Assembly: GCF_004216535.1 (NCBI RefSeq)
Contig: NZ_SGWX01000001.1
Span: 1,116,001 to 1,180,000 of the forward strand
Reading direction: 5' to 3'
Length of the DNA stretch: 64,000 nt
From: Xylanimonas ulmi
Lineage (GTDB): Bacteria; Actinomycetota; Actinomycetes; Actinomycetales; Cellulomonadaceae
Under the pieces are notes generated by a model. The model searched no databases. It was not told the DNA's origin and saw only the letters and a list, made by a program, of their open reading frames with translations. The stretch's first letter is position 1. Each line of letters starts with the position of its first letter. Both the position numbers and the translations under genes were made by a program. Of this stretch, positions 39,058 to 57,460 are shown piece after piece.

Positions 39058-41231
39058 GCGGGCACCTCCATGGCTTCGAATCGTGCGGCGCGGCGTTCCA
39101 CACCCGAGGAGAGGACGGCGATCCAGCCCCGGCGCAGCCGCGCGAGCGCCTTGTCGCGCCAGTGGGGGTTGTAGACCAGGTCGCTGCGGTAGAACGACGG
39201 GCACAGCGCGGCAGCGTGCGCGTTGGCGCCGCAGGTGCCGCATCCGACACACGAGTCGAGCACCGTCGCGACCGGATCGGTCCGCATCGGATCAGGGTTC
39301 GCCTTGATGGTGAGCGAGGGACAGCCGGAGACACGGATGCAGGCGTGGTCACCTGTGCACGTGTCGGCGTCGACGCCGAAGCGCTCCTTGACGGCGCGCT
39401 TGCCGTCCCGAATGGCCTGCGCCTTGAGCGGACGCTCGCGCCGCTGCCGGTTCAGCGAGCACTCGCTCTGCGCGATGATCACCTTGGGCCCGGGCTCCTT
39501 GGTCGTCAACGCCTTGACGAACAGGTCCCGAAGCTCGCCGATTCGATAGGTGTTCTTGACGGTTCTCGCCCAGGTGACGCCGACGCCTCGGACCGCCTTC
39601 TCAATGGGGTGCTTGGTCGACCGCAGGGGACTGTCGTTCCGGGACGAGAGGATGTCCTGCCCGCCGGTCGCCGCGGAATAGGCGTTGTCGACGACGAGGA
39701 GGAGCTGGTCGCTCTGGTTGAAGACGGCGTTGCCGACGCCGCTGGTCAGACCGTTGTGCCAGAAGCCGCCGTCGCCCATCACGGCGATCGTTCGTCGGTC
39801 GGCGCCCTTCGGGCTCAAGGCTGCGGCGCCCGCAGAACCGAGGCCGTAGCCCATGGTGGTGGCGCCGAGGTTGAACGGCTCGTTGATCGCGAACAGGTGG
39901 CAGCCGATGTCGGCGCTGACGTGGTGCTGTTTCCCGGTCTCCCGCTCGGCGAGTTTGAGCGCCGAGAAGATCGGTCGCTCAGGGCAGCCGGTGCACAGGC
40001 CGGGCGGGCGTGTGCGGACCACGGAGGGGTCCACTCGTGGCGCGAACGGGCTGCGGGGGTCGCCCACGGGCAGCAGCAGCGCCGGCTTGGCGGCGGCCGC
40101 GTCGGGCAGGTACCTGCTGAGAAAGGCGTGCAGGCCGCGCGTCACCTCGGTCGCGGTGTACTCACCCGCGACGGGCAGAAGGTCCTTGCCGTGCAACGCC
40201 ACATCGGACGCGGCGCGCCGCAAGATGGTGTTGAGGTTCTGCTCGATGTAGTCGGGCTGGCCCTCCTCGACCAGCAGCACGGCGCGCTTGTCCTTGACGA
40301 AGTCAAGGATCTCGGCGTCCACGACCGGATAGGTGACGTTCATGACGTAGGTCGGGATCCGGGTGTTGCCATAGGCGTCCGAGACGCCGAGCAACTCCAT
40401 CGCACGGTTGAGGGTGTTGTAGACGCCGCCCTGGACAATGACGCCGACGTCGGCGGCTCCCGCGCCGAGCACCTCGTTGAGGCCGTGGTTCGTGATGTAC
40501 TCGACGGCGGCCGGCCAGCGTTCCTCGACCTTCTCCCGCTCGTGGACGAAGCTCGCGGGCGGCAGCACGATCCGATCGACCTGGCGCGAGGGGTTCTCCG
40601 CCGCGTCCTTGACCGTCATCGGCGGGCGTACATTGTCCTTCGCGGTGAAGCTGCCATGCAGGTGGCACGAGCGCAGGCGCAGTTGCAGCATCACCGGAGT
40701 TGAGCTCGCCTCGGACAGCTCGAAGCCCGCTTCGACCGCGTTGACGATCGCGGCGACATTGGGGCGGGGGTCGAGGAGCCACATCTGGGATTTCATCGCG
40801 AAGGCGTGCGAGCGCTCCTGCATGATGCTGGATCCCTCGCCGTAGTCCTCGCCGACGATGATCAGGGCGCCACCCTGGACCCCGCCGCTCGCGAGGTTCG
40901 CCAGAGCGTCGGAGGCGACATTCGTGCCCACGGTCGACTTGAACGTGATGGCGCCCCGCAACGGGTAGTTCACCGATGCTGCGAGCATGGCGGCAGCCGT
41001 CGCCTCCGACGCGCTGTTCTCGAAGTAGACCCCCAACTCCTCCAGGATCTCGTGCGCGTCCCCGAGCACGTCCATCAGGTGAGAGATCGGGGCGCCCTGG
41101 TATCCGCCCACGTAGGCGACTCCTGACTGAAGCAGCGCCTTCGTCACGGCGAGGATTCCCTCGCCCGAGACGGTGCTCCCCTCGCCCGCCCGGAGCTTGC
41201 GCACCTCGTGCGCGAATGAACGTTCGGCCAT
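39054..41231 (-). CDS. Indolepyruvate-type ferredoxin oxidoreductase, large (alpha) subunit
   Basis: A 725-residue subunit. The N-terminal pyrimidine-binding/transketolase-like part has GEGILAVTKALLQSGVAYVG and SEATAAAMLAASVNYPLRGA. The thiamine-diphosphate motif is VMGDGGFWHNGLTSGVGNAV. Further motifs are CTGCPERP and a C-terminal ferredoxin-like part with CTGDHACIRVSGCP and CVGCGTCG for iron-sulphur clusters. The architecture matches IorA. Substrate could be indolepyruvate, phenylpyruvate or a related arylpyruvate; the neighbouring isatin-hydrolase-like and aminobenzoyl-CoA genes favour an indolic one. Confidence 0.85.
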   Translation of the reverse strand: MAERSFAHEVRKLRAGEGSTVSGEGILAVTKALLQSGVAYVGGYQGAPISHLMDVLGDAHEILEELGVYFENSASEATAAAMLAASVNYPLRGAITFKSTVGTNVASDALANLASGGVQGGALIIVGEDYGEGSSIMQERSHAFAMKSQMWLLDPRPNVAAIVNAVEAGFELSEASSTPVMLQLRLRSCHLHGSFTAKDNVRPPMTVKDAAENPSRQVDRIVLPPASFVHEREKVEERWPAAVEYITNHGLNEVLGAGAADVGVIVQGGVYNTLNRAMELLGVSDAYGNTRIPTYVMNVTYPVVDAEILDFVKDKRAVLLVEEGQPDYIEQNLNTILRRAASDVALHGKDLLPVAGEYTATEVTRGLHAFLSRYLPDAAAAKPALLLPVGDPRSPFAPRVDPSVVRTRPPGLCTGCPERPIFSALKLAERETGKQHHVSADIGCHLFAINEPFNLGATTMGYGLGSAGAAALSPKGADRRTIAVMGDGGFWHNGLTSGVGNAVFNQSDQLLLVVDNAYSAATGGQDILSSRNDSPLRSTKHPIEKAVRGVGVTWARTVKNTYRIGELRDLFVKALTTKEPGPKVIIAQSECSLNRQRRERPLKAQAIRDGKRAVKERFGVDADTCTGDHACIRVSGCPSLTIKANPDPMRTDPVATVLDSCVGCGTCGANAHAAALCPSFYRSDLVYNPHWRDKALARLRRGWIAVLSSGVERRAARFEAMEVPA

Positions 41232-41286: not shown

Positions 41287-42057
41287 TCAGGCCGAGACGA
41301 ACGCCAGTGCTCGGGCCGGCGAGCCGGTTCCGCCGACGATCGGCAGCGGTGCGGCGACGATCACGGCGCCTGTCGCCGGCAGCCGATCCAGGTTCTGCAG
41401 CTGGGTGAGGCCGAACTTGTTGGCGCCCAAGAGGTAGTGGTGCGCGGGGAACGGCGGCTCCATCCCGCCAGCCTGTCCCGCGTCGATGCCGACCGTCTCA
41501 ACCGCGAGGCCGGTGATGGGCGAGGCGGCCAGCCACCGCGCGGCGGCGGGGGAGACGCCCGGGGTGTGCGGACCGGCGTCGTCGGCGTTGGCGAAGGCGT
41601 CGGCGTCCTGGTTGAACGCGCTCCAGCCGGTGCGGAGCACCAGCCAGGCGCCCTCGGGGAGAGGGCCGTGCTCGGCAGTGTGCTTGTCGAGGTGCACCGG
41701 CTCGAGGAGGAAGTCCGGGTTCTCGGCCACCTCGTCGCGCACATCGAGCACGACCGCGGGGCCGACCAGGCGCGAGGGCTCGATCGCGTCGACCGAGAGC
41801 CCGTCGCGGCCGGTTGCCCAGTGCACGGGCGCGTCGAGGTGGGTGCCCGTGTGCTCACCTGTGTGGATGTTGTTCCATCCCCACGCGGGACCCCTCTCGT
41901 CGAAGTCGCTGACGGCCTCCAGCGAGAGCGGGATCGTGTTCGCGAAGGGGGCTGGCAGACGCAGGACCGGGGTCTGGGGGGACAGCGGTGCGGTGAGATC
42001 GACGATCTCGACCTCTCCCGACGACAGACCGGCCAGCAGGGCTTCGATGACAGACAT
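41287..42057 (-). CDS. Cyclase-family metal hydrolase (isatin hydrolase/kynurenine formamidase-like)
   Basis: A 256-residue hydrolase with the Mn/Zn motif HTGEHTGTHLDAPVHW (HxGTHxDxPxH) at about residues 66-81. The family pattern GAWLVLRTGWSAF follows, then EPPFPAHHYLLGANKFG near the end. Families with this fold open amide rings or formamides: isatin to isatinate, N-formylkynurenine to kynurenine, or cyclic amides generally. First gene of the leftward group that continues to the oxidoreductase and cupin. Isatin hydrolase is attractive given the aminobenzoyl-CoA enzyme nearby, but homology alone does not settle it. Confidence 0.8.
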   Translation of the reverse strand: MSVIEALLAGLSSGEVEIVDLTAPLSPQTPVLRLPAPFANTIPLSLEAVSDFDERGPAWGWNNIHTGEHTGTHLDAPVHWATGRDGLSVDAIEPSRLVGPAVVLDVRDEVAENPDFLLEPVHLDKHTAEHGPLPEGAWLVLRTGWSAFNQDADAFANADDAGPHTPGVSPAAARWLAASPITGLAVETVGIDAGQAGGMEPPFPAHHYLLGANKFGLTQLQNLDRLPATGAVIVAAPLPIVGGTGSPARALAFVSA

Positions 42058-42193: not shown

Positions 42194-43165
42194 TCAGCGC
42201 GAGCGGCCGAGGGTCTCGCTGGGCGACTCGCCGAACGCCGCACGGTAGTCGGCTGAGAATCGCCCGAGGTGCCCCACCCCCCAGCGGTGCGCGGCCTGCG
42301 CGACGGACTGCGCGCTGCCGTCGATGAGGCACTCCCGGACGCGCTGCAGCCGGGCGTGGCGCATGTGAGCCATCGGTGTGGTGCCGAGATGGGTTCGAAA
42401 GCCCTCCTGGAGCGTTCGCACGGACACTCCCACCGTCTCGGCGATATCGGGGGTGCGCAGCGGCTCGGCGCAGTGATCCTCGATCAGGCGGGCCGCACGG
42501 CGGATGATCCGACCGGAGGCCATGGCGCCGGCCGGCGCAGTTCGGCCCGCTTCGGCGAGTGATGCGATGAGCCCGTCGACGACTGCGAGCTGGAGCGCGC
42601 GGGTCGTGACGGGGGAGCGGCTCAGCCCGTCGTCGCGGTCGAGGTCGCTCACGACGAGGCTGACAAGGCTGCGCCAGGTGCGGCCAGCGCCGCTGCCTGT
42701 GTCGAACACGCTCGCCGACCAGCGTGGCAGCGCCGTCCCGCACGCCGCCGCGACCGCAAGTCGCTCGTGCAGCAACGGCGTCGCGATGCGGACCATGAGG
42801 CGGGGATTGCCCGCGGAGTAGCGCATACGGACGGTCTCTCCCGGCGCCGTGACGACGGCGCTGCGCGCGGTGGCCTTGACGGCGCGCACTCCCGTCTGGA
42901 CCACCGTCAAGCCTGCGAGGGGGAGTTGCACCAAGCAGAACCCCAGGTGCTCGGCGGTGACCTCGACCTCGGTTCCGTAGTCGATGTAGTGCAGGCTGAC
43001 CTGGTCGAGCCCTGCCGCGTTGTGCTGAGCCTGGAACGCCCCCGGATCGCGAAGCGCGGTCAGGCGATGCGGGGCCAATGACGCGGCGACCGAGGCGCGA
43101 GCGTCATCGAGGTCTGTGGTTCGCAGCAGTCCGTGCGATCCGAGCGGTGTCGCGACTCTCGCCAT
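42194..43165 (-). CDS. AraC-family regulator of the catabolic cluster
   Basis: A 323-residue regulator from ATG 43165 behind AAGGAGG; the open frame upstream is not coding. N-terminal AraC-binding-like domain (about residues 20-190). C-terminal double helix-turn-helix (about 220-320) with LRTPDIAETVGVSVRTLQEG and the second-motif region AQAAHRWGVGHLGRFSADYR. This type (AraC_binding_2) is common in regulators of aromatic catabolism. It is divergent from the flavin reductase/monooxygenase pair and upstream of the leftward cyclase group, so it could control both. Confidence 0.82.
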   Translation of the reverse strand: MARVATPLGSHGLLRTTDLDDARASVAASLAPHRLTALRDPGAFQAQHNAAGLDQVSLHYIDYGTEVEVTAEHLGFCLVQLPLAGLTVVQTGVRAVKATARSAVVTAPGETVRMRYSAGNPRLMVRIATPLLHERLAVAAACGTALPRWSASVFDTGSGAGRTWRSLVSLVVSDLDRDDGLSRSPVTTRALQLAVVDGLIASLAEAGRTAPAGAMASGRIIRRAARLIEDHCAEPLRTPDIAETVGVSVRTLQEGFRTHLGTTPMAHMRHARLQRVRECLIDGSAQSVAQAAHRWGVGHLGRFSADYRAAFGESPSETLGRSR

Positions 43166-43325: not shown

Positions 43326-43802
43326 ATGAGTTGTGTGACACCCGCCACAATCGAGGTGACGCCCGCGACACTTCGTGGCCAGTTGGCCCGTTGGCCCACG
43401 GGCGTCGCGATCATCACGGCCAATGGCCTCAGCCGCCCGCTCGGAAAGACCGTCAACAGTTTCCACTCAGCGTCACTTGAGCCGGCGATGGTCGGCTGGT
43501 GCATCGACAAGAAGTCGAGTCGGTTTGACGAGTGGGTCGCGGTGACCGGGTATGTCGTCCATGTGATGGCGAGCCATCAGGCCGAGCTCGTCTCGCGGTT
43601 CGCAGCGTCGAGGTCCGATCGGTTCGACGGAGTCGAGACGACACCCGGGCTCGACGGCATCCCCATGCTGACGGGCGAGGTTCCGCTGCGACTCGAATGC
43701 CGGGTCGCCGGGACCTTCGACGTCGGAGACCACGTCTACCTGATCGGCCAGGTCGTCACGATGGCCGCCACCGCGCACGTCCCCATGACCCTGCAGCGTT
43801 GA
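43326..43802 (+). CDS. Flavin reductase (RutF/HpaC-like)
   Basis: A 158-residue flavin:NAD(P)H reductase-like split-barrel protein. Residues about 20-60 (WPTGVAIITANGLSRPLGKT, VNSFHSASLEPAMVGWCIDK) follow the family pattern. FDVGDHVYLIGQVV replaces the usual GDHxxxxGxV with a good match. It should supply reduced FMN to the monooxygenase encoded 36 bp downstream. The ribosome site is weak. It is transcribed divergently from the AraC regulator. Confidence 0.82.
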   Translation: MSCVTPATIEVTPATLRGQLARWPTGVAIITANGLSRPLGKTVNSFHSASLEPAMVGWCIDKKSSRFDEWVAVTGYVVHVMASHQAELVSRFAASRSDRFDGVETTPGLDGIPMLTGEVPLRLECRVAGTFDVGDHVYLIGQVVTMAATAHVPMTLQR

Positions 43803-43838
43803 CCTTTCGCTCTCGAACCAACATCTGGAGGCACCCTC

Positions 43839-44942
43839 ATGAGCATCCCCATCCTCGAGTCGGAGCACTTCCGGCTCGGCCTGTTCTCGTCGAACTGTTC
43901 CGGCGGCCTCGCGGTCACCACGATCCCCGAGCGGTGGTCGGCGTCATGGGACGACAACCTGCGTCTGGCTCGGCTGGCGGACCAGACGGGCATTGACTTC
44001 ATGCTCCCGATCGCGCGGTGGATCGGATACGGAGGCGAGACGAACTTCCATGAGGGCGTGCTCGAGCCGATTCCGTGGGCGACGGCGATCCTCGCCAACA
44101 CTGAGCGACTGACCGCCTTCAGCACGATCCACACCGCGTTCAACCACCCCGCGGTCACCGCGAAGCAGCTGGCCACCATGGACCAGATGGCCCCGGGACG
44201 GGTGGGCGTCAACGTCGTCGCCGGCTGGAACCAACCCGAGTACGTCGCGATGGGATCCGACCTGCCCCAGGACCACGACTCGCGTTACGCGCTGGCTCAG
44301 GAGTGGGTCGACATCCTGACCACCCTGTGGTCGCGCGACGGCCGTTACGACCTCAACGGCAGATTCTGGGATCTGCGAGGCATCGAAGCGGTTCCCAAGC
44401 CCGCGGCTCGACGCCTGCCGATCCTCAACGCCGGCTCCTCGCCGCAGGGCAAGGCGTACGCCGCGCGCAACGCCGACTTCGTCTTCACGATCGTCAGCGG
44501 CCCGCAGGAGGGCGCCGCAGTCGTCAAGGAGCTCACGGCCGCATCGGCTGCCCAGGGACGCGCGGCGGGTGTGCTCAGTCCGACGCACGTGGTCTGCCGC
44601 CCCACCCGCAAGGAGGCGCAGGAGTACCTGCACTACTACGCCGAGGAGAACGCCGACTGGGACGCGGTCGACAACCTGATGCGGTTGCAGGGCCTGCACG
44701 CGCAGTCGTTCAGCAAGGATCTGCTGGCGAACTTCCGCAGCCGGTTCGCCGCGGGTCACGGCACGTGCCCCCTCATCGGGTCACCCGACGATGTCGCGGA
44801 CGAGATCGAGCGGTTCGCCAAGGCGGGATTCGGCGGCATCACGATGGCCTTCGTCGACTACGTGGGTGAGTTGGAGTACTTCGCCCAGGAGGTCATGCCG
44901 CGGCTTGTCAAGAAGGGCCTGCGTCCCGAGAGCCCCGCCTGA
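43839..44942 (+). CDS. RutA/DszA-like FMNH2-dependent monooxygenase (bacterial luciferase fold)
   Basis: A 367-residue LLM-class enzyme with GGAGG before the ATG. Several stretches follow RutA closely: WIGYGGETNFHEGVLEPIPW, TAFSTIHTAFNHPAVTAKQL and MAPGRVGVNVVAGWNQPEYV. RutA opens the uracil ring by adding oxygen next to the ring nitrogen, and DszA acts on sulfones; both use the two-component system with a separate reductase, as here. The substrate is unknown, but an N-heterocycle is the reasonable guess in this cluster. Confidence 0.85.
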   Translation: MSIPILESEHFRLGLFSSNCSGGLAVTTIPERWSASWDDNLRLARLADQTGIDFMLPIARWIGYGGETNFHEGVLEPIPWATAILANTERLTAFSTIHTAFNHPAVTAKQLATMDQMAPGRVGVNVVAGWNQPEYVAMGSDLPQDHDSRYALAQEWVDILTTLWSRDGRYDLNGRFWDLRGIEAVPKPAARRLPILNAGSSPQGKAYAARNADFVFTIVSGPQEGAAVVKELTAASAAQGRAAGVLSPTHVVCRPTRKEAQEYLHYYAEENADWDAVDNLMRLQGLHAQSFSKDLLANFRSRFAAGHGTCPLIGSPDDVADEIERFAKAGFGGITMAFVDYVGELEYFAQEVMPRLVKKGLRPESPA

Positions 44943-44967
44943 TCGACCCGCTCGAACCACGGTCCTC

Positions 44968-44996
44968 GCGGTGGCGGGCATCCCGTCCGCCACCGC
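44968..44996. terminator. Terminator hairpin between convergent monooxygenase and paaX-like genes
   Basis: A perfect 10-bp stem GCGGTGGCGG/CCGCCACCGC with a 9-base loop. No U-run. Confidence 0.6.
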
Positions 44997-45014
44997 AGGC
45001 CGCTGAGGCGTCGA

Positions 45015-45869
45015 TCAAGCCTGCGGCCAGAAGAGGCCCGCGTGTGAGAGCGCCGGAGGCTCCAGCGCTGTGACGAGTCGTTGGAACACCCGCGCGGCGC
45101 CGGGACCGGGCCAGTCCGGCGCCAGAACCTCCGTGGGCAGGCCCGGGTCCGCGAACGGCAGACGCCGCCACGCGTCGATCGCCTCCAAGTAGCTCGTGAA
45201 CGCAGGTGCGCCGTGCGGCGTCTCGCTCTCGACGAGATCGGCGAGCGCCTCGTAGTGGTCCAGGAAGCCGCGGTAGCCCTGCGCGATCGATGCCAGGTCC
45301 CAACTCGCGTAGACGAGATCTCGCAGGTCCTGGGGGCCGTGATAGTCACCGGTGAAGATGGTCGCGAACTCGTCAAGGCCAAGGTCCGAGATGGCTCGGG
45401 CTGCTGCCGCGCGACGCCGCGCGGGAGCGATCCACATGGCCGTGCCGATGTTCCCGAAGCCCTGCGCCGCAAGGTGGGAGCGCAGTTGGTGGCGCTGTGC
45501 GCGCCGCGACTCCGGCACGCTGAAGTTGACGACGCACCACCCGTCCTCAAGAGCGGGAGCGGTCGGTGCGTCCCAGATGACGCTGTCTCCCGCCGCGAGT
45601 GTCGCCTCGGCGAGCTTGGTCAGTGAGTAGCCCCGCACGCCGCCACGGGTCTGTGGCGTCAGCCACCCCTTGCGCTTGAGCCTGTGGATGGCGGTGCGGA
45701 CGCCGGGATCGTCCAGGCCGCACAGCGCGAGCAGCTCAACCGCGGCCGCGACGGGCGTCCAGGCGCCCAGCGGACGCACGACGGCGCCGAGGTAGGTCAC
45801 GACGGTGCTGCGAGACTGTCGCACCGCCAGGGCGCTCGCGCTCGGATCGAGCGTCTCCACCGTCGTCAC
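45015..45869 (-). CDS. PaaX-family transcriptional repressor
   Basis: A 284-residue regulator from a GTG overlapping the upstream thioesterase stop (GTGA). The N-terminal winged helix (about residues 25-95: LLALCGLDDPGVRTAIHRLK, RKGWLTPQTRGGVRGYSLTK) and the long C-terminal domain (GNIGTAMWIAP, LVYASWDLASIAQGYRGFLD) match PaaX. That protein senses phenylacetyl-CoA. By analogy this one should sense an aryl-CoA made by the operon it closes, providing feedback induction. Confidence 0.88.
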   Translation of the reverse strand: MTTVETLDPSASALAVRQSRSTVVTYLGAVVRPLGAWTPVAAAVELLALCGLDDPGVRTAIHRLKRKGWLTPQTRGGVRGYSLTKLAEATLAAGDSVIWDAPTAPALEDGWCVVNFSVPESRRAQRHQLRSHLAAQGFGNIGTAMWIAPARRRAAAARAISDLGLDEFATIFTGDYHGPQDLRDLVYASWDLASIAQGYRGFLDHYEALADLVESETPHGAPAFTSYLEAIDAWRRLPFADPGLPTEVLAPDWPGPGAARVFQRLVTALEPPALSHAGLFWPQA

Positions 45870-46339
45870 GTGACCTGCTCCGTGGCGCTCGGCGTGCGCG
45901 GCTCTCCCGCCAGATCGGTCAGGGCGCGTCGCCACGCTTCTGGCCACGGCACGCTGGCCGGGTCGTGGCCGGGTCGGCGGCCCACGCCGATGTGAACTGT
46001 CACGTACCGTCCCCGAGCCGCGCGTCGCCGGGGACGGCCCTGGAACGACTCGCCCCACACCTCGAACTCCCAGTGCATCGAGGACGTGCCGATGCGCGTG
46101 AGCGCGACCTGCGTGGTGACGTCCTGAGTGAAGGAGAGCGGGGCCTCGAAGTCCGCCTCGAAGCGCACCCGTGGACTCGTCGGGAAGTAGTCGGACAGGC
46201 CCCGCTCGACCATGAGGCGGGATTCGGCGGCCTCGACGAACCGGATGACCGTGCTGTTGTGGTAGATGCCCGCCGCGTCGGTGTCGATCCACTCCACGCG
46301 GGCGCGGGCGACACCGACGGCAATGGGGCGTTGACTCAC
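45866..46339 (-). CDS. 4-hydroxybenzoyl-CoA thioesterase-like hotdog protein
   Basis: 157 residues from GTG 46339, overlapping both neighbours by 4 bp. Hotdog signature VEWIDTDAAGIYHNSTVIRFVEAAE (read as VEWIDTDAAGIYHNS then VIRFVEAAE) around residues 15-39, with the catalytic-type Asp and Tyr-His of 4HBT thioesterases. It would release an aromatic acid from CoA, or recycle CoA from dead-end intermediates of the adjacent aminobenzoyl-CoA enzyme. Confidence 0.8.
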   Translation of the reverse strand: MSQRPIAVGVARARVEWIDTDAAGIYHNSTVIRFVEAAESRLMVERGLSDYFPTSPRVRFEADFEAPLSFTQDVTTQVALTRIGTSSMHWEFEVWGESFQGRPRRRAARGRYVTVHIGVGRRPGHDPASVPWPEAWRRALTDLAGEPRTPSATEQVT

Positions 46340-48708
46340 GCGGGCACCGTAGCACCAGCGCGCCAGCGCAGGTGGGGCGACGGTTCGTCTGCGGCCAACA
46401 GCAGCCGCAGACGCGGGGGGACCTTGTCGGTGCGCGACGTCGGCGGCTTGCGTCGCCCTGCCGCCCACGGGACCGGCCACGCGGCGGCGGGCCCCGAGTA
46501 GGACTGTTCGGCCGCGGCGTGAAGCGTCCAACTCGGGTCGTACAGGTGCGTGCGACCCAGAGCGCACAGGTCCGCGCGACCGGCGAGGAGGATCGAGTTG
46601 ACGTCGTCGTGCGAGGAGATCGCGCCGACGGCGATGACCGCGACGCCCGCCGGGGCGGCGACCTCCTGGCGGATCCGGTCCGCGAACGGTGTCTGATACG
46701 AGCGGCCGAACGCCGGCCGCTCGGCCTTGGTGACTTGGCCTGAGGAGACGTCGATCGCCGCGGCCCCCGCCGTGATGAACGCGCGGGCGATCTCGACGGC
46801 GTCGTCCGCCGTGTTGCCCTCGGGCGCCCAGTCAGTGGCCGAGATGCGCACCGTGACGGGGATGTGATCGGGCACGACGGCGCGCACCGCGGTGAAGACC
46901 TCGAGCGGGAAGCGCAACCGGTTGTGAAGGCTGCCGCCGTACTCGTCGAGGCGGTGGTTGGAGACCGGGGAGAGGAACGAGCTGAGGAGGTATCCATGGG
47001 CCGCGTGCACCTCGACGAGGTCGAAGCCAGCCTCGACGGCCCGGGCGGCCGCGGCGACGAAGTCGGCGACGACCTTGTCGAGGTCGGCGCGGGTGGCCTC
47101 GCGCGGCACATGGCAGCCCGGGCCGTATGGCACGGCGGAGGGTGCGACGACCTCCCAGTTGCCGTCGTCGAGCGGCTCGTCGATGCCCTCCCACATCAGC
47201 TTGGTGGAGCCCTTGCGCCCGGAGTGGCCGAGCTGGACGCCGATCTTCGCCGTCGAACGCGTGTGGACGAAGTCGGTGGTCCGTCGCCACGCGGCGGCCT
47301 GGGCGTCGGACCACAGACCGGGACAGCCGGGGGTGATCCGTCCTTCGGGGGACACGCACGTCATCTCGGTCATGACCAGTCCCGCGCCGCCGAGGGCCCG
47401 TGAGCCGAGGTGGACGAGGTGGAACTCGCCGATGACCCCGTCGGTGGCGCAGTACATGTCCATCGGCGAGAGCACAACGCGGTTCTTCAGCTCAAGCTGG
47501 CCGATCCGCGCCGGCTGGAACATCGCAGGAGCGTCCTCGTGCCCACCGTGGCGGTGCGCGAACGCCGACTGGATCCGCGCGGCGAAAGCGGCGTCGCGCT
47601 CCTTGAGGTTCTCGAAGGTGATACGGCGCGATCGTGTCAGCAGGTTGAACACGAACTGCGCGGGGTCCTGGTCGGCGTACATGCCAATGCTCTCGAACCA
47701 CTCGAGCGAGGCCTGCGCCGCGCGCTGGGTCGACTCGACGACGGGCTTGCGCTCGGTCTCGTAGGCCTCGAGCGCCTCAGCGAGGGTTGGGTGCTCGTGC
47801 AGGCACGCCGCCAGAGCGAGCGCGTCCTCCATCGCCAATTTGGTGCCCGAGCCGATCGAGAAGTGCGCGGTGTGCGCGCTGTCGCCCAACAGCACGACAT
47901 TGTCGTGGTGCCAACGCTCGTTGCGCACCGTGTGGAAGTTGATCCACTTGGAGTTGTTGGTGAGGATCGCGTGTCCTTGGAGCTCGTCCGCGAAGATCTG
48001 CGCGATCCGCTCGACGGCGTACTCGTCGCTGGCCCCAGGCGGGAGGTCGTCGCCCTCTGTCTTGTCAAGGCCCGCCCGGCGCCAGACCTCCTCGCGCATC
48101 TCGACGATGAAGGTCGAGCCCTCGGCCGAGTAGGGGTAGCCGTGGACCTGCATGACACCCCACGGTGTCTGCTTGACGAAGAACTGGAACGCCTCGAACA
48201 CGAGATCGGTGCCGAGCCAGATGTACTTGTTGGCGCGGCGGTCCAAGGAAGGCCCGAAGTGGTCCGAGTGCTTGGTGCGGATCGCCGAGTGCAGCCCATC
48301 GGCCGCGACCACGAGGTCATGCGTCGACTGCAGCAGGTCCAGATCGGGTCCCGGGGTGCGGTAATGGACGGTGACGCCCAGCTCGTGGGCCCGCTCCTGC
48401 AGGATGCGCAGCAGCACCCGGCGCGACATGGCGGCGAAGCCTTGGCCGCCCACGGTGAACTGGTGACCGTTGAAGGTGACGTCGATGTCGCTCCACCGGG
48501 CGAACGTGGCCTCCATCCGCTCGTGGATCACGGGATCGGCGCCATCGATCCCGCCGAGGGTCTCGTCCGAGAAGACGACCCCGAACCCGAATGTGTCGTC
48601 GTCGGCGTTCCGCTCCCAGACGGTGACTTCGTGGGCGGGGTCGAGGGTCTTGAGGAGGGTGGCGAGGTACAGGCCTCCGGGGCCGCCACCGACGATCGCG
48701 GTCTTCAT
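46336..48708 (-). CDS. Fused 2-aminobenzoyl-CoA (salicylyl-CoA) monooxygenase/reductase
   Basis: A 790-residue bifunctional flavoenzyme. Residues 1-380 are a class A flavin monooxygenase: GGGPGGLY (7-14), the DGLHSAI motif and VLLGDSAHTAHFSIGSGTKL for FAD. From about 395 to the end is an old-yellow-enzyme type reductase (LKNRVVLSPMDMYCA, VQLGHSGRKGS, HAAHGYLLSSFLSPVSN, RLDEYGGSLHNRLRF). This fusion is the known architecture of 2-aminobenzoyl-CoA monooxygenase/reductase of the aerobic CoA-dependent anthranilate pathway, and of proteins annotated salicylyl-CoA 5-hydroxylase. No CoA ligase is in the window, so the thioester must be formed elsewhere. Overlaps its neighbours on both sides. Confidence 0.9.
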   Translation of the reverse strand: MKTAIVGGGPGGLYLATLLKTLDPAHEVTVWERNADDDTFGFGVVFSDETLGGIDGADPVIHERMEATFARWSDIDVTFNGHQFTVGGQGFAAMSRRVLLRILQERAHELGVTVHYRTPGPDLDLLQSTHDLVVAADGLHSAIRTKHSDHFGPSLDRRANKYIWLGTDLVFEAFQFFVKQTPWGVMQVHGYPYSAEGSTFIVEMREEVWRRAGLDKTEGDDLPPGASDEYAVERIAQIFADELQGHAILTNNSKWINFHTVRNERWHHDNVVLLGDSAHTAHFSIGSGTKLAMEDALALAACLHEHPTLAEALEAYETERKPVVESTQRAAQASLEWFESIGMYADQDPAQFVFNLLTRSRRITFENLKERDAAFAARIQSAFAHRHGGHEDAPAMFQPARIGQLELKNRVVLSPMDMYCATDGVIGEFHLVHLGSRALGGAGLVMTEMTCVSPEGRITPGCPGLWSDAQAAAWRRTTDFVHTRSTAKIGVQLGHSGRKGSTKLMWEGIDEPLDDGNWEVVAPSAVPYGPGCHVPREATRADLDKVVADFVAAAARAVEAGFDLVEVHAAHGYLLSSFLSPVSNHRLDEYGGSLHNRLRFPLEVFTAVRAVVPDHIPVTVRISATDWAPEGNTADDAVEIARAFITAGAAAIDVSSGQVTKAERPAFGRSYQTPFADRIRQEVAAPAGVAVIAVGAISSHDDVNSILLAGRADLCALGRTHLYDPSWTLHAAAEQSYSGPAAAWPVPWAAGRRKPPTSRTDKVPPRLRLLLAADEPSPHLRWRAGATVPA

Positions 48709-49652
48709 TCCTGGTCTCCCTTCGCGGGCGCAGTGGCCCGGATCATGCCTTCCTGGACGACGGTCGCCACATGGACGCCGTCGGCGGTGAAGAAACGGCC
48801 GGTGGCGCTTCCGCGGCCGTCGGCCACCGAGAGCGCCTCCTGGGTGTAGAGAAGCCAGCCGCCCAGCGTCGCGGGCCGGTGGAACCACATGGCGTGGTCG
48901 AGGCTCGCGGTGACGAGCCCCTCATCGGCCCACGCCAGTCCGAGCACTCGCAGGACGGGCTCGAGGATCGTGTAGTCGCACACGTAAGCGAGGGCGGCCG
49001 CGTCACGCTGTGTCTGGCTGAGTCCGTCGACCGGACGCAGCGCGTCGAAGGGTCGGATCCACACCGCCTGGTGGGGCGTGCGCCGGCCGTCCGCCGTGAG
49101 GTAGACGGGGTCGGGAGCGTGGCGGATGTCGAAGCCTCGCCCGAGGGCCCAGTAGGTCAGTGCGTCGTCGCGGACCGCGCCCGCGTCTCGTGACGCGAGG
49201 TGCGCCTGTGACGTCGAGACCGAGTCGGGTCCCGGGGCGGGAGGCATCGCCGGCTGGAAGCCGCCGCCGGGAGCTGCGGTGGCGAAGCTCGCCAGGCACA
49301 CGAACACGGGCTTGCCGTGCTGGAAGCCGCGCACGTGGCGTGCGCTGTAGCCACGCCCGTCGCGCAGCAGTTCGACCTCGTAGCGGACCTGGGCGCCGAT
49401 GTCGACAGGCCGCAGGAAGTAGGCGTGCGTCGAGTGGATCGACTTGCCGTCGGTGACCGTGCGCGTCGCGGCGACCAGCGCCTGCGCGACCATGTCCCCG
49501 CCGTAAGCCTTGGGCCATGGGCACCGGCCCGTCGTGGCGGTGAACGCGACGTCGAACACCTCCGCGTCGGCCGGCGTGAGCGTGAGGGCGTTCGTCACGA
49601 GCGTCGACGTCGGTGTGCGGGCGGAGACGGTCGCGGCGGGGAAGGGGGGCAT
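48705..49652 (-). CDS. Acyl-CoA thioesterase II (TesB-like)
   Basis: A 315-residue double-hotdog thioesterase. Family stretches include CPWPKAYGGDMVAQALVAAT, SIHSTHAYFLRPVDIGAQVR near the N-terminus and TASLDHAMWFHRP with the catalytic-type Asp region in the second half. ATG 49652 behind AAGGAAG is preferred; ATG 49676, overlapping the preceding stop, would add eight residues. The 3' end overlaps the start of the fused monooxygenase/reductase. Together with the small hotdog protein it gives this operon two thioesterases. Confidence 0.85.
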   Translation of the reverse strand: MPPFPAATVSARTPTSTLVTNALTLTPADAEVFDVAFTATTGRCPWPKAYGGDMVAQALVAATRTVTDGKSIHSTHAYFLRPVDIGAQVRYEVELLRDGRGYSARHVRGFQHGKPVFVCLASFATAAPGGGFQPAMPPAPGPDSVSTSQAHLASRDAGAVRDDALTYWALGRGFDIRHAPDPVYLTADGRRTPHQAVWIRPFDALRPVDGLSQTQRDAAALAYVCDYTILEPVLRVLGLAWADEGLVTASLDHAMWFHRPATLGGWLLYTQEALSVADGRGSATGRFFTADGVHVATVVQEGMIRATAPAKGDQE

Positions 49653-49672
49653 CGGCGTCTTCCTTCGGAGCG

Positions 49673-50473
49673 TCATGCGAGCCGGATGGTGTTGGTCAGG
49701 ACGCCGATGCCGGTGACCTCGGTCTCGACGACGTCGCCGTCGGCGAGCAGCGCGGGAGGCGTCATCCCGATGCCGACTCCGCCGGGAGTCCCGGTCAGGA
49801 GCACGTCGCCTGGCCTGAGCGTGGTGAAGGTGGACACATAGGCCAGGAGCGTCGCGCAGGGGAACACGAGCGCTTTGGTGTCGCCTCGCTGTCGCTCGAT
49901 GCCGTTGACGCGGCAGATCACCTCGACACCGGCCTCCGGGTCGAGCTCGTCGGGGGTGACGACGACCGGACCGAGGGGGGTGGTCGCGTCCCAGGCCTTC
50001 CCCTGGAACCACTGCGGAGTGCGGCGCTGCCAGTCGCGCACGGAGATGTCGTTGGCGACCGTGTAGCCCGCGATTGCTCCGCGCGCCTGCGCCTGGTCGG
50101 CATTGCGCAGTTCGCGCCCGACGACCACGGCCAACTCGGCCTCCCAGTCGACCTCGACGCCGGCCGGGAGCCGGATGTCTTGGCCGTCGCCCGTCAGCGT
50201 GTCCGCATATTTGGCGAAGAGCGTCGGGTGGGAGGGGGTGTCGCGTCCGGTCTCGGCGATGTGGTCGCCGTAGTTGAGGCCGCAGCAGATGACCTTGCCC
50301 GGACGTGGCAGCGGCAGTGTCGGCGTGGCGTCGGCGAGCCGCGCGCCGGGCTGCCAGGCGACGTCGGCGGCCAGGAGGGCTGAGAGGTCAGCGGCGGGCA
50401 GCGCCCGCCAGGTCGTGCCGTCCTGGACCGCGGCGGTCGTGCCGTGGGGTGTGATGACTGTCGCAGCTCGCAT
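49673..50473 (-). CDS. Fumarylacetoacetate-hydrolase-family protein
   Basis: A 266-residue FAH-fold protein with the metal ligands in VDWEAELAVVVGRE and ANDISVRDWQ, plus GKAWDATTPLGPVVV, VNGIERQRGDTK and VLLTGTPGGVGIGM, all family landmarks. Members cleave or decarboxylate beta-diketo acids such as acylpyruvates and oxalocrotonate, the late ring-cleavage products. First gene of a tightly packed leftward operon (FAH, tesB, fused oxygenase, thioesterase, paaX). It is divergent from the RidA-like gene across a short gap with a palindrome. Confidence 0.85.
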   Translation of the reverse strand: MRAATVITPHGTTAAVQDGTTWRALPAADLSALLAADVAWQPGARLADATPTLPLPRPGKVICCGLNYGDHIAETGRDTPSHPTLFAKYADTLTGDGQDIRLPAGVEVDWEAELAVVVGRELRNADQAQARGAIAGYTVANDISVRDWQRRTPQWFQGKAWDATTPLGPVVVTPDELDPEAGVEVICRVNGIERQRGDTKALVFPCATLLAYVSTFTTLRPGDVLLTGTPGGVGIGMTPPALLADGDVVETEVTGIGVLTNTIRLA

Positions 50474-50499
50474 ATTGCAGTTCTCGCACGAACGTTGCA

Positions 50500-50515
50500 C
50501 ATCTGTCAATAGATG
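50500..50515. promoter_or_regulatory. Palindrome in the FAH/RidA divergent promoter
   Basis: CATCTGTCAATAGATG: CATCT/AGATG arms, with a nearly symmetric core. It is a candidate operator for the cluster's PaaX or AraC regulator. Confidence 0.4.
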
Positions 50516-50530
50516 GTTAGCCTGCGGCGC

Positions 50531-50956
50531 ATGAGCTCAGAGTTGACGCCACTGGCGGTGAACCCGGACACGCTGCCCGCGCCCCGTGGGTACTCCCACG
50601 GCACACTGAGCGGGAACACGCTCTACCTCGGCGGCCAGACCGCGCTCGACGCCGAGATGCGGATCGTCCCCGGCGGGATCGTCGCGCAGTTCCGCCAGGC
50701 GTTCGGCAACGTCCTGACCACGCTGCGGGCCTGCGGGGGTGTTCCCGGCGACCTCGTGTCGATCACGATCTTCCTGACGGACATCCCCGACTACCAGGCG
50801 CACGGACGCGAGATCGGCGCGGTGTGGCGTGAGCTGGCGGGGCCGGTCTACCCGGCGATGGCGGGCATCGGCGCCACGGGCCTGTGGCAGGCCGAGGCCC
50901 TCATCGAGATCATGGGGGTCGCCGTCATCCCCGACGAGCGGCTGATCCGCTCATGA
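50531..50956 (+). CDS. RidA/RutC-superfamily protein
   Basis: A 141-residue YjgF/RidA-fold protein: SHGTLSGNTLYLGGQTALDA, QFRQAFGNVLTTLRACGGVP, DIPDYQAHGREIGAVWREL and YPAMAGIGATGLWQAEALIE. The position that holds the catalytic Arg in classic RidA (PARSCVEV) is PAMAGIGA here. It is therefore unlikely to deaminate 2-aminoacrylate and fits the Rid subfamilies associated with catabolic operons. RutC, a relative, assists hydrolysis after RutA action, and a RutA-like enzyme is encoded 6 kb away. Confidence 0.8.
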   Translation: MSSELTPLAVNPDTLPAPRGYSHGTLSGNTLYLGGQTALDAEMRIVPGGIVAQFRQAFGNVLTTLRACGGVPGDLVSITIFLTDIPDYQAHGREIGAVWRELAGPVYPAMAGIGATGLWQAEALIEIMGVAVIPDERLIRS

Positions 50957-53145: not shown

Positions 53146-54009
53146 TCAGTCGCCGAGGCTCTCACCGAGCACCCGCAGGACGGCGTCGCGCGCCCGCGCC
53201 GAGCGTCCGGAGCGCCGCTGGGCCACGAGCTCCACGAGCTGCTCGACGACGAGCGCCAGGGCCGCGCGCGAGGTGTGCAGCAGCTCGTCGCGGAAGGTGC
53301 CTCCCACCGGAGGAACGACCAGGGCCGTGTCCGCCAGGCGCACCAGCGGCGCGTCGGCGAACGACGTCACGGCGAGCACCTGGGCGCCCGCGTCCCGCGC
53401 GTCCGCCGCGGCCGCGAGCGTGGGCCGGCTCGACCCGGAGCCCGACAACACCAGGCAGACCGACGACGCCGTGAGCTGGCGGGCCGCGATCTGCTGCGCG
53501 AGCGGGTCGGGCACGAACTCGCACGGCCGGCCTGCCGCGCCGAGCCGCATTGCGGCGTCGTACCCCAGCGGCATCGACAGCCCCGCCGCGACGACGACGA
53601 CACGTTCGGCCTCGTCAAGCGCGGCGACCGCGGCGGTCACCTGCTGCTCGGTCAGCACCGACGTCACGCGCGACAGCCCACGCGCGAACTCCTCGACCGC
53701 CGCGCGCAGCGCGCCGACAGCCGTGCCATCGCCGGTCGAGGCCTCGGCCGGCGGAGCGAAAGCGAGCTCGCGGGCGACGGCGACGCGCAACTGCGGGTAG
53801 CCGTCGTACCCGAGCGTGCGCGCGGTGCGCACGACCGACGCGCGCCCGACGCCCGCGTGGTCGGCGAGCTGCTGCGCGGTGCGCTCGACGGCCCCGGCCA
53901 GGTCCGCTGCGATCGCGTCGGCCACGCGCCGCTCGCTGGGCTGCAGCGCGGGCGCCAGCGCGGCGATGCGCGCCGACGGCGGGGCGTCATCCGGTCCGTT
54001 CCACGACAC
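53146..54009 (-). CDS. RpiR/MurR-family regulator with SIS domain
   Basis: A 287-residue regulator from GTG 54009 inside the end of the second permease gene (23-bp overlap). N-terminal helix-turn-helix (QQLADHAGVGRASVVRTART, LGYDGYPQLRVAVAREL, about residues 45-80). C-terminal SIS domain (about 115-260: RVVVVAAGLSMPLGYDAAM, VCLVLSGSGSSRPTLAAA) that would bind a phosphosugar. A phosphosugar sensor closing a PhnD-type import operon with a phosphatase suggests the imported compound is a sugar phosphate or similar ester. Confidence 0.85.
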   Translation of the reverse strand: MSWNGPDDAPPSARIAALAPALQPSERRVADAIAADLAGAVERTAQQLADHAGVGRASVVRTARTLGYDGYPQLRVAVARELAFAPPAEASTGDGTAVGALRAAVEEFARGLSRVTSVLTEQQVTAAVAALDEAERVVVVAAGLSMPLGYDAAMRLGAAGRPCEFVPDPLAQQIAARQLTASSVCLVLSGSGSSRPTLAAAADARDAGAQVLAVTSFADAPLVRLADTALVVPPVGGTFRDELLHTSRAALALVVEQLVELVAQRRSGRSARARDAVLRVLGESLGD

Positions 54010-54829
54010 GTGCGCGGGCCCCCTTCGTGATCCGTCGGCGGATGGCGCCGGAGACGGCGTCGATCGCCATGGTCACCACGACGACCACGACGACCAGCAC
54101 GCCCACGGCGTCCCACTGACGGTACTGGGTGTACCCCGTCAGCAGGTCGCCGACGCCGCCCACACCGATGACCCCGAGGATCGCCGAGGTGCGCACGTTG
54201 ATCTCGAACCGGTACAGCGCGAGCGACGCGAGCTCGGGCGCGGCGGCGGGCCACAGGCCCCAGCGCACGATCGCGGAGCGCGTCCCCCCGGCGGCGCGCA
54301 CGGCCTCGGCGACGCCGTCGGGCAGGGCCTCGATCGTCTCGAAGGTCCATTTGGCATGCGTGCCGACCCCGCCGATCGCGAGGGCGAGCGCGCCGGTGAA
54401 CGGCGTCAGGCCGGTGACCGTGAGGATGACGATCGCGATGACCACCTCGGGCACCGCGCGCAGCACGGCGAACAGCGCGCGCAGCGGCAGGCGCAGCCAC
54501 CCCGGTCCGACCCCGCGGGCCGCGGCGAGGCCGAGCGCCGTCGCCACGACGACGCCGGCCAGCGCCCCGGCCCACGCCATCTGGACCGACACCCAGGTCT
54601 GCGCCAGCGCGTAGGGCAGACGCGACCAGTCGGGGTCGGCGAACATCAGCCACAGGTAGTGCGCCACCGCGCTCGGCAGCCCCGGCAAAGCCGACCAGTC
54701 CAGGCGCAGGTGCAGCGCCGCGCCGAGCACCACAGCCGCGGTGGCGGCCTGCGCGGCCCGCACGCCGCGTCGGCGCGGGCGCGGCGGGGCGGCGACGTCG
54801 GCGCCGGTGGGCGCAAGGACGGCGGTCAC
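53987..54829 (-). CDS. Phosphonate-type ABC transporter permease (PhnE-like), second copy
   Basis: A 280-residue permease, GTG overlapping the first permease stop. About six membrane segments. The ABC permease EAA region reads AEAVRAAGGTRSAIVRWGLW, and PEVVIAIVILTVTGL and GVGGVGDLLTGYTQYRQWDA match PhnE. Forms a heterodimeric channel with the preceding gene. Confidence 0.88.
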   Translation of the reverse strand: MTAVLAPTGADVAAPPRPRRRGVRAAQAATAAVVLGAALHLRLDWSALPGLPSAVAHYLWLMFADPDWSRLPYALAQTWVSVQMAWAGALAGVVVATALGLAAARGVGPGWLRLPLRALFAVLRAVPEVVIAIVILTVTGLTPFTGALALAIGGVGTHAKWTFETIEALPDGVAEAVRAAGGTRSAIVRWGLWPAAAPELASLALYRFEINVRTSAILGVIGVGGVGDLLTGYTQYRQWDAVGVLVVVVVVVTMAIDAVSGAIRRRITKGARARVVERTG

Positions 54830-55623
54830 CGCAGCCTCGCGCGCAGCGCGCTGGAGGCCGCCTCGATGAGCACGACGACGACCAGGATCTCAAGGATGAC
54901 CGTCGCGAGGGCGTCGTAGCGGTAGAAGCCGCGCAGCTCGTCGATGAGCCGGCCGATCCCACCCGCGCCCACGAGCCCGAGCACCGACGAGACACGGACG
55001 TTGAGCTCAAGGGAGTACAGGACCTGGCTCGCGTAGGCGGGCCAGGTCTGTGGCACGGCGAGCAGACGGTTGACCTGCGCCTGCGTGCCGCCCGCGGCGT
55101 GCCCGGCCTCCAGGTAGGCGGCGTCGGCCGCCTCGATCGCCTCCGAGACGAGCTTGACGACGACGCCCAGGTCGAACAGCACGAGGGTGATCACCCCGGG
55201 CAGGGCGCCGACGCCGACCATGGCCACCAGGAGGGTCGCGTACACCAGGTCGGGCACGGCGCGCACGACGTTGAGGGCCGCGCGCACCACGTGCCGCGCC
55301 CGGCCAGGGTGGGTCGGGCGCGCGGCCCACATCGCGATCGGCAGGGCGAGGGCGGCGGCCACCGCCGCGCCGAGGACGGCGACCTCGAGCGTCTCGAGCA
55401 GCGGGCGGACGGTGCGCGGCAGGATCGACAGGTCGGGGCGCAGCAGGGCGGCCACGCGGCTGGCCCCGAAGTGCCAGTTGCGCGCGATCGCGCCCAGGTC
55501 CACGTCGATGCCGCCCAGCGCGGGGGTCAAGGCGACCACGGTGACCGCGCCGACGACGCCCAGCGCCGCGAGCGTGCGCGGCCAGGTGCGTGGGCGCGGT
55601 GGGACGGCGAGACGCGCCGTCAT
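54826..55623 (-). CDS. Phosphonate-type ABC transporter permease (PhnE-like), first copy
   Basis: A 265-residue permease coupled by overlaps to phnC-like and the second permease gene. About six membrane segments. The EAA loop is [20 protein letters not shown] and the end [20 protein letters not shown], a clear PhnE pattern. Two consecutive PhnE-type genes are a known arrangement for phosphonate/phosphite importers. Confidence 0.88.
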
Positions 55624-56447
55624 CGGATCCGCCCCAACCGGTCGCGCGCCTGGATGGGGCGGCCGTAGATCTCCTCGAACACGGTGTCGTCGGCGCTCGC
55701 CGAGGGGCCGTCATAGACCAGCTCGCCGCCGCGCAGCCCGATCATGCGCGTCGTGTACTGCCGGGCCAGGTCCATCAGGTGCAGGTTGACCAGCACCGTC
55801 AGCCCGCGCTCGGTGTTGATGCGCCGCAGGTCCGCCATGACCGCGTGGGCGGTGGGCGGGTCGAGGCTCGCCACGGGCTCGTCGGCGAGCATGACGCGCG
55901 GGCGTTGGCTCAGCGCCCGCGCGATGGCGACGCGCTGCTTCTGCCCGCCCGACAGGGCGCCAGCCCGGCCCCAGACCCGCTCCAGCATGCCGACCGAGTC
56001 GAGCGCGGCCAGCACCGTGTCGCGGTCGGCGCGTGTGGGCGCGCCCAGCAGGGTCCGCCACGTCGGGGTGTGGGCGACCCGGCCGACGAGCACGTTCTGG
56101 TAGACGCTCGCGCGGTCGGCGAGGTTGAAGGACTGGAAGATCATGCCGACCTCGCCGCGCAGCCGCCGCAGCCCCCGCCCCCGCAGCGCGCCGACGTCGT
56201 AGGGGCCGACCCGGACGGCGCCCTCGGTCGGGGCGACGAGCCCGTTGACGGTGCGCACCAGGGTCGACTTGCCCGAGCCCGACAGCCCGACGACGGCGAT
56301 CATCTCGCCCGCCTCGACGGCCAAGGACACGTCGCGCAGCGCCGTCGTGCCCGTGGGGTAGCGGACGGTGACGTGGTCGAGTCGTACGGGCCAGGGCCCG
56401 GAGGCGGCCGGCGCCGCCTCCGGGCCCGGGGCTGGGGTGGCCGTCAC
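55620..56447 (-). CDS. Phosphonate-type ABC transporter ATPase (PhnC-like)
   Basis: A 275-residue ATPase, GTG start overlapping the binding-protein stop. Walker [11 protein letters not shown]-loop MIFQSFN, signature [15 protein letters not shown] and Walker [12 protein letters not shown] followed by a switch His (NLHLMD). PhnC-specific sequence around [18 protein letters not shown] supports the assignment. Confidence 0.9.
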
Positions 56448-57460
56448 TTGCCCGCGAACCGGGCCGTGACCTTGCGGGCGAGGTCGATCTGGTCGGGGTC
56501 GGCGGGAGTCCAGCCGGTCTGGTCGAAGATGCTCTGGAGCGTGTCCGGGTCGACCTTGTCGTATCCGCCCATGAGCGTGGTGATCTGGTCACGCAGGTCG
56601 GCGGGCACGTCAGGGCCGAGCACGACGCCGCCGTTGGGGTACATCTCCGACAGGCCGAAGACGACGACCTTCTGCCCGAGGTCAGGGACCTCGGCCGTGT
56701 CGATGGCCGAGCGCGCGTCCCAGTACGCGAAGCCCACCTCGGCGTCGCCGTTGTAGACCGCCATGACGAGGTTGTCGTTGCCGGTCACGGGCACCTGCTG
56801 GAGCGTGTCGACGTCGACGCCGGCCGCCTCCAGGTCGAGGACCGGAAGCTGATAGCCGGCAGGCGACGTCGTGTTGCCGAACGCGACTTTCGTGCCGGGG
56901 GTGATCTTGGCGAGGGCGTCGAGCCCGACCGGGCCGACACCCGTGTTGGTCTCGCCGTTCGCCACGCCGTTGCAGTACAGGTACGAGGCGCCGTTGGCGG
57001 CGTAGGTCGCCTCGACCGGGGTGTCGGTGCAGTACTTGTCGGCGTTGTCGACGCTCGTGAAGAACTGCGCGGCGTAGGAGGACGCGCCGAAGCGCACGTC
57101 CTGGAGCACGGGGAACGCGCCGCACTGGTCCTGGGCGGCGGCGAGCGAGCCGGCGTCGGCGATGGCGATCTGGGCCTGGCCCGAGCAGATGGCCTCGACC
57201 GCGGCGGCGTAGTCCTTGGTGACGACGCCGCGCACGGGGATGCCGAGCTGGTCCGAGAGGTAGTCGGTGAGCGGCTTGGCCGAGGTGACCAGGTCGCCCA
57301 CCTGCTCGTTGGGGATGAGGGCGAGGGTCAGCTCCGCGGGCGGCTCGGCGTCGGAGTCTGCGTCGGCGGTGGCGGAGGGGCTGCAGCCCGCCAGGGTCAG
57401 GGCCAGGGCTGCGATGGCGAGCGCACCCGGCGCGAACAGGGTCTTGCGCATGTCCGTCAT
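56444..57460 (-). CDS. Phosphonate-type ABC transporter substrate-binding lipoprotein (PhnD-like)
   Basis: A 338-residue lipoprotein with lipobox LAGC (Cys about 26). The ATG at 57460 overlaps the phosphatase stop and follows GAAAGGC. PhnD-family features are [53 protein letters not shown] and [14 protein letters not shown]. It captures a phosphonate, phosphite or phosphate-ester; the exact ligand is unknown. Confidence 0.88.

Follow-up and report, generated by a model that had tools for sequence, protein, structure and literature searches.

A probable isatin-degradation cluster in Xylanimonas ulmi and its orphan two-component flavin oxygenase

Introduction

The genome of the actinobacterium Xylanimonas ulmi (assembly GCF_004216535.1) contains a pair of neighbouring genes for a flavin reductase (43326-43802) and a flavin-dependent oxygenase of the luciferase-like monooxygenase (LLM) type (43839-44942), and one would wonder which compound this pair serves to degrade. 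All coordinates refer to a stretch of 64,000 nucleotides of contig NZ_SGWX01000001.1 (positions 1,116,001 to 1,180,000), hereafter the window. In an initial annotation, the two proteins and a RidA-family protein (50513-50956) had been taken for a Rut-like trio, with a cyclase in place of the amide-hydrolysing RutB. The three genes, all on the plus strand, are indeed real coding sequences. We propose that they belong to a catabolic cluster of two modules, for isatin and the oxindoles from which it would be formed, extending over 37.4-51.0 kb, a reading to which we give a probability of about 0.6. Its two neighbouring operons would most likely serve the breakdown of isatin, an oxidised indole, via 2-aminobenzoyl-CoA. 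Enzyme families, gene overlaps, conserved linkage and residue conservation can be read in the sequence itself; from these we infer each of the reactions in X. ulmi, above all those of the LLM and Rid proteins.

Results

The cyclase is encoded on the minus strand at 41287-42057, outside the interval 43326-50956 in which it had been placed. Among proteins of solved structure it is closest to isatin hydrolases, matched over the full length at E 4.8e-75 (isatin hydrolase B, PDB 4j0n) to 3.8e-73 in a phmmer search of the PDB, whereas the next-best solved family, that of another cyclase, is matched at E 1.6e-31 and the kynurenine formamidases at E 1.7e-6 or weaker. An assignment as kynurenine formamidase was ruled out, the protein reaching 42 bits with that model (cut-off 223) while isatin hydrolases match at E 1e-75. 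The residues named for isatin hydrolase are the Mn ligands (two His and an Asp), a following His and a WxW motif (PMC6117287); all are kept in the X. ulmi protein, as an HxxxHxD Mn site, the His after it and the WxW motif of the pocket, a likeness that covers the enzymes of Labrenzia (IHA/IHB) and Ralstonia (IHA). We consider the protein to be an isatin-hydrolase homologue whose likeliest substrate, judging from these features, would be isatin. The suggestion that it takes the place of RutB was sound in that enzymes of this type cleave cyclic amides; the cyclase appears, on the other hand, to be an isatin-hydrolase homologue in its own right and not a RutB stand-in.

The isatin hydrolase gene stands just upstream of two genes with which it forms the upper minus-strand group. 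They encode an IorA-type subunit with thiamine diphosphate (ThDP) and [4Fe-4S] sites (39054-41231) and an IorB-type subunit with a POR gamma domain and DUF6537 (37405-39057), and the IorB ATG at 39057 overlaps the IorA stop codon by 4 nt. IorB passes the subfamily model NF006179 with 697 bits (cut-off 348) and is the only subunit of the indolepyruvate:ferredoxin oxidoreductase (IOR) type above a cut-off; IorA, with 267.7 bits, fails the canonical IOR alpha model TIGR03336 (cut-off 650.9), which argues that this is not the canonical indolepyruvate enzyme. We propose that IorA and IorB could together form an isatinate (2-aminophenylglyoxylate):ferredoxin oxidoreductase.

The lower minus-strand group runs from 50473 to 45015, and every junction in it is a 4-nt overlap. 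It comprises a fumarylacetoacetate-hydrolase-family (FAH) enzyme (49673-50473, with sub-cut-off matches to FAH-family models and a possible upstream start at 50509), a TesB-type acyl-CoA thioesterase (48705-49676; PF02551/PF20789/PF13622), a fused FAD monooxygenase and old-yellow-enzyme reductase referred to here as ACMR (46336-48708; PF01494 and PF00724), a 4HBT-type thioesterase (45866-46339; PF13279/PF03061) and, as final gene, a PaaX-family regulator (45015-45869; PF07848/PF20803/PF08223). ACMR scores 1207 bits, above the cut-off of 1078, with the model NF006101, which bears the name 'bifunctional salicylyl-CoA 5-hydroxylase/oxidoreductase'. A fusion of an FAD monooxygenase with an old-yellow-enzyme domain is the layout of 2-aminobenzoyl-CoA monooxygenase/reductase, and the genomic context favours 2-aminobenzoyl-CoA over salicylyl-CoA as the probable substrate of ACMR. 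With IorAB and ACMR as neighbours, the 'other N-heterocycle' on which Rut-type chemistry had been supposed to act can be narrowed to isatin as a specific candidate. It does look as if an N-heterocyclic lactam is catabolised; the Rut trio is what has to be given up.

To see how far this arrangement is conserved, genome contigs were scanned for relatives, which gave 80 named LLM loci in Actinomycetota, Bacillota and Pseudomonadota; the counts that follow refer to the flanks fetched. Within them were found homologues of isatin hydrolase (35 loci), of the AraC-type regulator described below (32), of ACMR (30), of the flavin reductase (23) and of IorA (19). In 22 loci the flavin reductase gene precedes the LLM gene on the same strand, 450-565 nt upstream of it. 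Among 31 genomes whose LLM flanks lack isatin hydrolase, 27 have a match elsewhere, one being a fragment with a stop codon, so that 26 are intact. Isatin hydrolase was present in 47 of 297 genomes class-wide, and its occurrence in five orthologue-bearing genomes of this sample, the query genome excluded, gives a hypergeometric P of 0.002. LLM belongs to a conserved family without assigned function that accompanies isatin-degradation genes in many bacteria; no published link between an LLM protein and isatin was found in the literature searched. An indole-monooxygenase-type flavoprotein in eight LLM loci (610 bits to PDB 7z4x, the next hits being named as styrene/indole monooxygenase family) further ties the LLM gene to indole oxidation.

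The distribution of the enzymes that could act on isatinate follows a pattern. IorA and a ThDP decarboxylase never share a locus (0 of 17 IorA loci among those with isatin hydrolase or ACMR; P 2.5e-4), and a benzoate-CoA-ligase-like gene is present in all seven loci having both the ThDP enzyme and ACMR (P 8e-4). Such a pattern would follow if free anthranilate were the end product of the ThDP route but not of the IorAB route. It fits two routes from isatinate to 2-aminobenzoyl-CoA, one directly by IorAB and one by 2-aminobenzaldehyde and anthranilate followed by CoA ligation. A compound C7H7NO has been detected in the iad pathway of Variovorax (PMC12633357); in our reading, it fits 2-aminobenzaldehyde.

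As to LLM itself (PF00296, 194 bits), its resemblance to RutA, on which the initial annotation relied, is real (28.5% identity over 354 residues, 126 bits), but the dimethylsulfone monooxygenase SfnG is slightly closer (32.0% identity, 145 bits) and LLM fails the models of both, with 157.6 bits for TIGR03612 (RutA; curated equivalog cut-off 498.3) and 195.5 bits for TIGR04021 (SfnG; cut-off 382.95). A separate, true SfnG scoring 607 bits is encoded elsewhere in the same genome. In a first tree, the LLM orthologues formed one group (100/95) apart from RutA (100/99) and SfnG (100/99), with LLM and RutA on the same side of a 100/99 branch; in a second, RutA and SfnG were again separate groups and most orthologues lay apart from both, the deep order being open. 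Rooting with paralogues of the same genome, applied in two trees of which this second one is the later, did not succeed in telling whether RutA or SfnG is the nearer sister: branches were very long, some sequences were in wrong reading frames, one of them still so in the later tree, and in both of these trees the orthologues did not fall on one side of a single branch. LLM does not group with the sulfone monooxygenases, a grouping that would have spoken against the initial annotation. By these sequence comparisons, LLM is not RutA, nor is it SfnG, and it lies outside the two clades.

The residues of the RutA O2 pocket, Thr105 and Asn134 (PMC10005588), align together with RutA Trp139 with T96, N125 and W130 of LLM. 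Over 86 orthologue rows, Thr is found in 85 (one gap) and Asn and Trp in all 86, whereas SfnG has Ala at the Thr site in 12 of 12 rows. An AlphaFold model of LLM (pLDDT 88.6) matches RutA (TM score 0.84) and SfnG (about 0.8) about equally, and Foldseek does not separate the two; by sequence and fold taken together, SfnG is the nearest solved structure. RutA-like flavin-N5 chemistry is plausible for LLM on this basis. The flavin reductase (PF01613) matches best the models for FerA (120 bits) and HPAH reductase (101 bits), and reaches 44 bits with that for RutF (cut-off 255). A parallel can be drawn with RutA/RutF of the Escherichia coli rutABCDEFG operon, also a group C, FMN-dependent LLM oxygenase with a separate flavin reductase. 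LLM differs, however, in reaching only one third of the RutA cut-off score and in its separate clade, and no other rut genes were recognised among its neighbours, a true rut operon (locus L141) being available for comparison.

The Rid gene lies 5.6 kb from the reductase-LLM pair, divergent from the FAH gene and beside a different operon, contrary to its supposed membership of the LLM cluster; it would belong to the 2-aminobenzoyl-CoA module, and nothing points to a RutC-like role (34.5 bits with the RutC model, cut-off 169). The cut-offs for RutA, RutC and RutF all being failed, and RidA being part of another module, the Rut-like trio was ruled out. The absence of the classic Arg was correctly noted: where PDB 3k0t has 'YPARAA', the X. 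ulmi protein has 'YPAMAG', a Met replacing the catalytic Arg105. Among 25 homologues of this type, divergent Rhizobiaceae copies included, 24 have Met and one has Ala; three unrelated Rid hits have Ser. The Rid gene occurs in 18 of 25 long ACMR loci and in 2 of 34 others (Fisher P 1e-7), and it is within about 1.1 kb of the FAH gene, itself found in 17 of the 25, wherever both are present. This travelling with ACMR fits an amino compound as the substrate of ACMR. We propose that the Rid protein could deaminate the enamine product of ACMR; with the carboxylate of this enamine masked as a thioester, the carboxylate-binding Arg would not be needed.

Several other features accompany the cluster. 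An AraC/XylS-type regulator (42194-43165, minus strand; PF14525 and PF12833) is divergent from the reductase-LLM pair. A small cupin-domain protein (36905-37342, minus strand; PF07883/PF00190) has homologues in the flanks of 15 of the 80 loci, and in related clusters its gene often adjoins FAH/TesB or IorB. Scans of the cluster for promoters and terminators found nothing above chance. The third-position GC content goes from about 0.88 left of the cluster to about 0.95 right of it, with a step at about 50.5-51.0 kb that is possibly the edge of an acquired region. Outside the isatin cluster, at 53146-57460 on the minus strand, the translations of the open reading frames (ORFs) indicate an RpiR-type regulator and an apparent phosphonate-type ABC transporter (ATPase, two permeases and binding protein).

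The LLM loci of other bacteria also show gene sets of their own. A CrtO/phytoene-desaturase-like FAD enzyme of about 540 residues is encoded near LLM in 26 of the 80 loci (e.g. L075:6820-8442); it was not found in the X. ulmi genome, a weak negative as the control genomes were also silent. In three Georgenia loci (L050, L051 and L057), the LLM orthologue adjoins a CrtO-like FAD oxidase, and L051, with related ORFs in L050 and L057, also has a molybdenum-hydroxylase large subunit, which could make 2-oxindole from indole. In Neobacillus and Alkalihalobacillus (L069-L071), a Bacillota version of the cluster groups LLM with isatin hydrolase, an aldehyde dehydrogenase, a ThDP enzyme of a different kind and a pair of ORFs of about 217 residues. 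Finally, a 36% LLM relative on a plasmid of Variovorax sp. RA8 (L140) is accompanied by an isochorismatase-family hydrolase, an SDR, a PEP-mutase-family enzyme, a LeuCD-like pair and a flavin reductase, which may constitute another N-heterocycle pathway.

Discussion

In the pathway that we propose, LLM, provided with FMNH2 by its flavin reductase, would form isatin by oxidising an oxindole (dioxindole or 2-oxindole being the likeliest), and the isatin hydrolase would open the lactam of isatin to give isatinate. IorAB would then carry out the oxidative decarboxylation of isatinate with CoA and ferredoxin to 2-aminobenzoyl-CoA, a step for which no CoA ligase would be required, and ACMR would convert this thioester to the enamine 2-amino-5-oxocyclohex-1-ene-carboxyl-CoA. 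The Arg-less Rid protein would hydrolyse the enamine with release of ammonia, and the FAH-family and thioesterase enzymes could account for ring opening and CoA release. The product of ACMR is reported to be an enamine carboxyl-CoA, and anthranilate-grown Arthrobacter contains a CoA ester that might be cyclohexanedione-carboxyl-CoA (PMC3534580); this might be the product expected of Rid, and we count it in favour of the pathway. We regard the sequence of events from isatin by 2-aminobenzoyl-CoA to ring reduction as quite probable. That the LLM pair is what makes isatin has, in our view, slightly less than even chances, and more tentative still is the complete proposal, that is, a new class of two-component oxindole oxygenase with isatin on-pathway, an IorAB that makes 2-aminobenzoyl-CoA from isatinate and an Arg-less Rid that deaminates a CoA-bound cyclic enamine, a role for which the literature searched gave no precedent among Rid proteins lacking Arg105.

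Several observations weigh against this pathway. Searches of the X. ulmi genome found no ring-hydroxylating dioxygenase (PF00848) and no molybdenum hydroxylase, the control genomes being positive, and no indole monooxygenase, a weak negative as the control genomes were silent. As the LLM pair is the sole oxygenase recognised in the upper module, this suggests that the oxindoles come from outside or are formed via an unrecognised enzyme. The signature loop of isatin hydrolases is GLAS or GLQC (PMC6117287), unlike the GLTQ of the X. ulmi protein, and the LLM-linked relatives in which the loop was read have GLTQ, GLTS, GITS, GVTQ or GLAQ; a related lactam could then be the substrate. Loss of Arg105 is taken to predict that a Rid protein does not have the usual deaminase activity (PMC5619798), so that the proposed Rid step runs counter to the common rule. 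Five of the 31 genomes mentioned above (three Saccharopolyspora and two Georgenia) have no intact isatin hydrolase. Lastly, the loci counted in our tests are phylogenetically non-independent, and all P values are guides only.

Other explanations were also considered. The LLM pair could be a sulfur-scavenging sulfone or sulfonate monooxygenase located here by chance, and SfnG is indeed its nearest solved relative in sequence and fold. LLM, however, reaches half of the SfnG cut-off score and is linked to isatin genes in a cluster where no sulfur genes were recognised; with a genuine SfnG elsewhere in the genome and the clades separate, we reject this explanation as extremely improbable. It is hardly more attractive to suppose that the lower module is a salicylyl-CoA/gentisate pathway, with the cyclase and LLM serving for some other, unrelated compound. 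The name of NF006101 speaks for this, and genes of the FAH family and cupin genes are also found in gentisate pathways. No gentisate 1,2-dioxygenase or salicylate-CoA ligase was recognised, however, among the cluster genes examined, the layout of the fusion is that known for the 2-aminobenzoyl-CoA enzyme, the accompanying Rid fits an amino compound, and this reading would give no account of why isatin hydrolase and IorAB are linked to it.

An alternative that deserves more attention, unlikely as we consider it, is that LLM opens a lactam ring directly in the manner of RutA, by attack of a flavin-N5-peroxide on the amide carbonyl of dioxindole or another N-heterocycle, the ring-opened acid entering the pathway beside isatin hydrolase. 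The conservation of the pocket Thr and Asn, the Thr being replaced in SfnG, and the structural match of the LLM model to RutA would agree with such a reaction; but LLM lies outside the RutA clade, and there would be no need for the isatin hydrolase that most LLM-bearing genomes have. It is somewhat less probable again that an auxin-derived oxindole (oxindole-3-acetate or dioxindole-3-acetate) is degraded and that LLM removes or oxidises its C3 side chain to give isatin. Loci of the iad type do take indole-3-acetate through dioxindole-3-acetate and isatin, with IorAB (PMC9613470). The X. ulmi genome, however, is devoid of the ring-hydroxylating dioxygenase, and loss of the side chain in the iad pathway is attributed to three enzymes, namely a CoA ligase, a thiolase and a dehydrogenase (IadF, IadG and IadH; PMC12633357), whereas neither CoA ligase nor thiolase was identified in the window cluster.

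The proposed isatin pathway can be compared with three known systems. In the iad pathway of Variovorax and Bradyrhizobium, indole-3-acetate is degraded through dioxindole, isatin and isatinate, iorA and iorB are exclusive markers, and IadI is annotated as a kynurenine formamidase (PMC9613470, PMC12633357). X. ulmi, on the other hand, has no PF00848 protein that could correspond to the Rieske oxygenase IadDE; it has the LLM/flavin-reductase pair instead, and we propose that the product enters the ACMR route as a CoA thioester. The iif/ind pathway of Acinetobacter and Burkholderia oxidises indole (PMC12538310), and eight of the LLM relatives have an indole-monooxygenase-type protein encoded nearby. 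In iif, on the other hand, anthranilate is formed by a cofactor-independent oxygenase, and a gene for isatin is missing (PMC6221969). The aerobic 2-aminobenzoyl-CoA pathway of Azoarcus evansii and Arthrobacter sp. Rue61a likewise has a monooxygenase/reductase acting on 2-aminobenzoyl-CoA, with PaaX-related regulators nearby in Arthrobacter (PMC3534580). The window cluster differs in having no recognised CoA ligase, IorAB being proposed as the source of the CoA thioester, and clusters of its type have the Arg-less Rid as a conserved partner.

Among the open questions in a review of indole degradation is that of whether isatin is a true intermediate, the known iif cluster having no isatin gene (PMC6221969). 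The cluster described here, together with the LLM relatives in Actinomycetota, Bacillota and Pseudomonadota, provides candidate genes for each step, so that this question becomes testable. It also leads us to propose a role for a RutA-related oxygenase family that had none, and another for those Rid proteins in which the catalytic Arg is absent. Furthermore, it could explain why IorAB is a marker of isatin-based auxin degradation.

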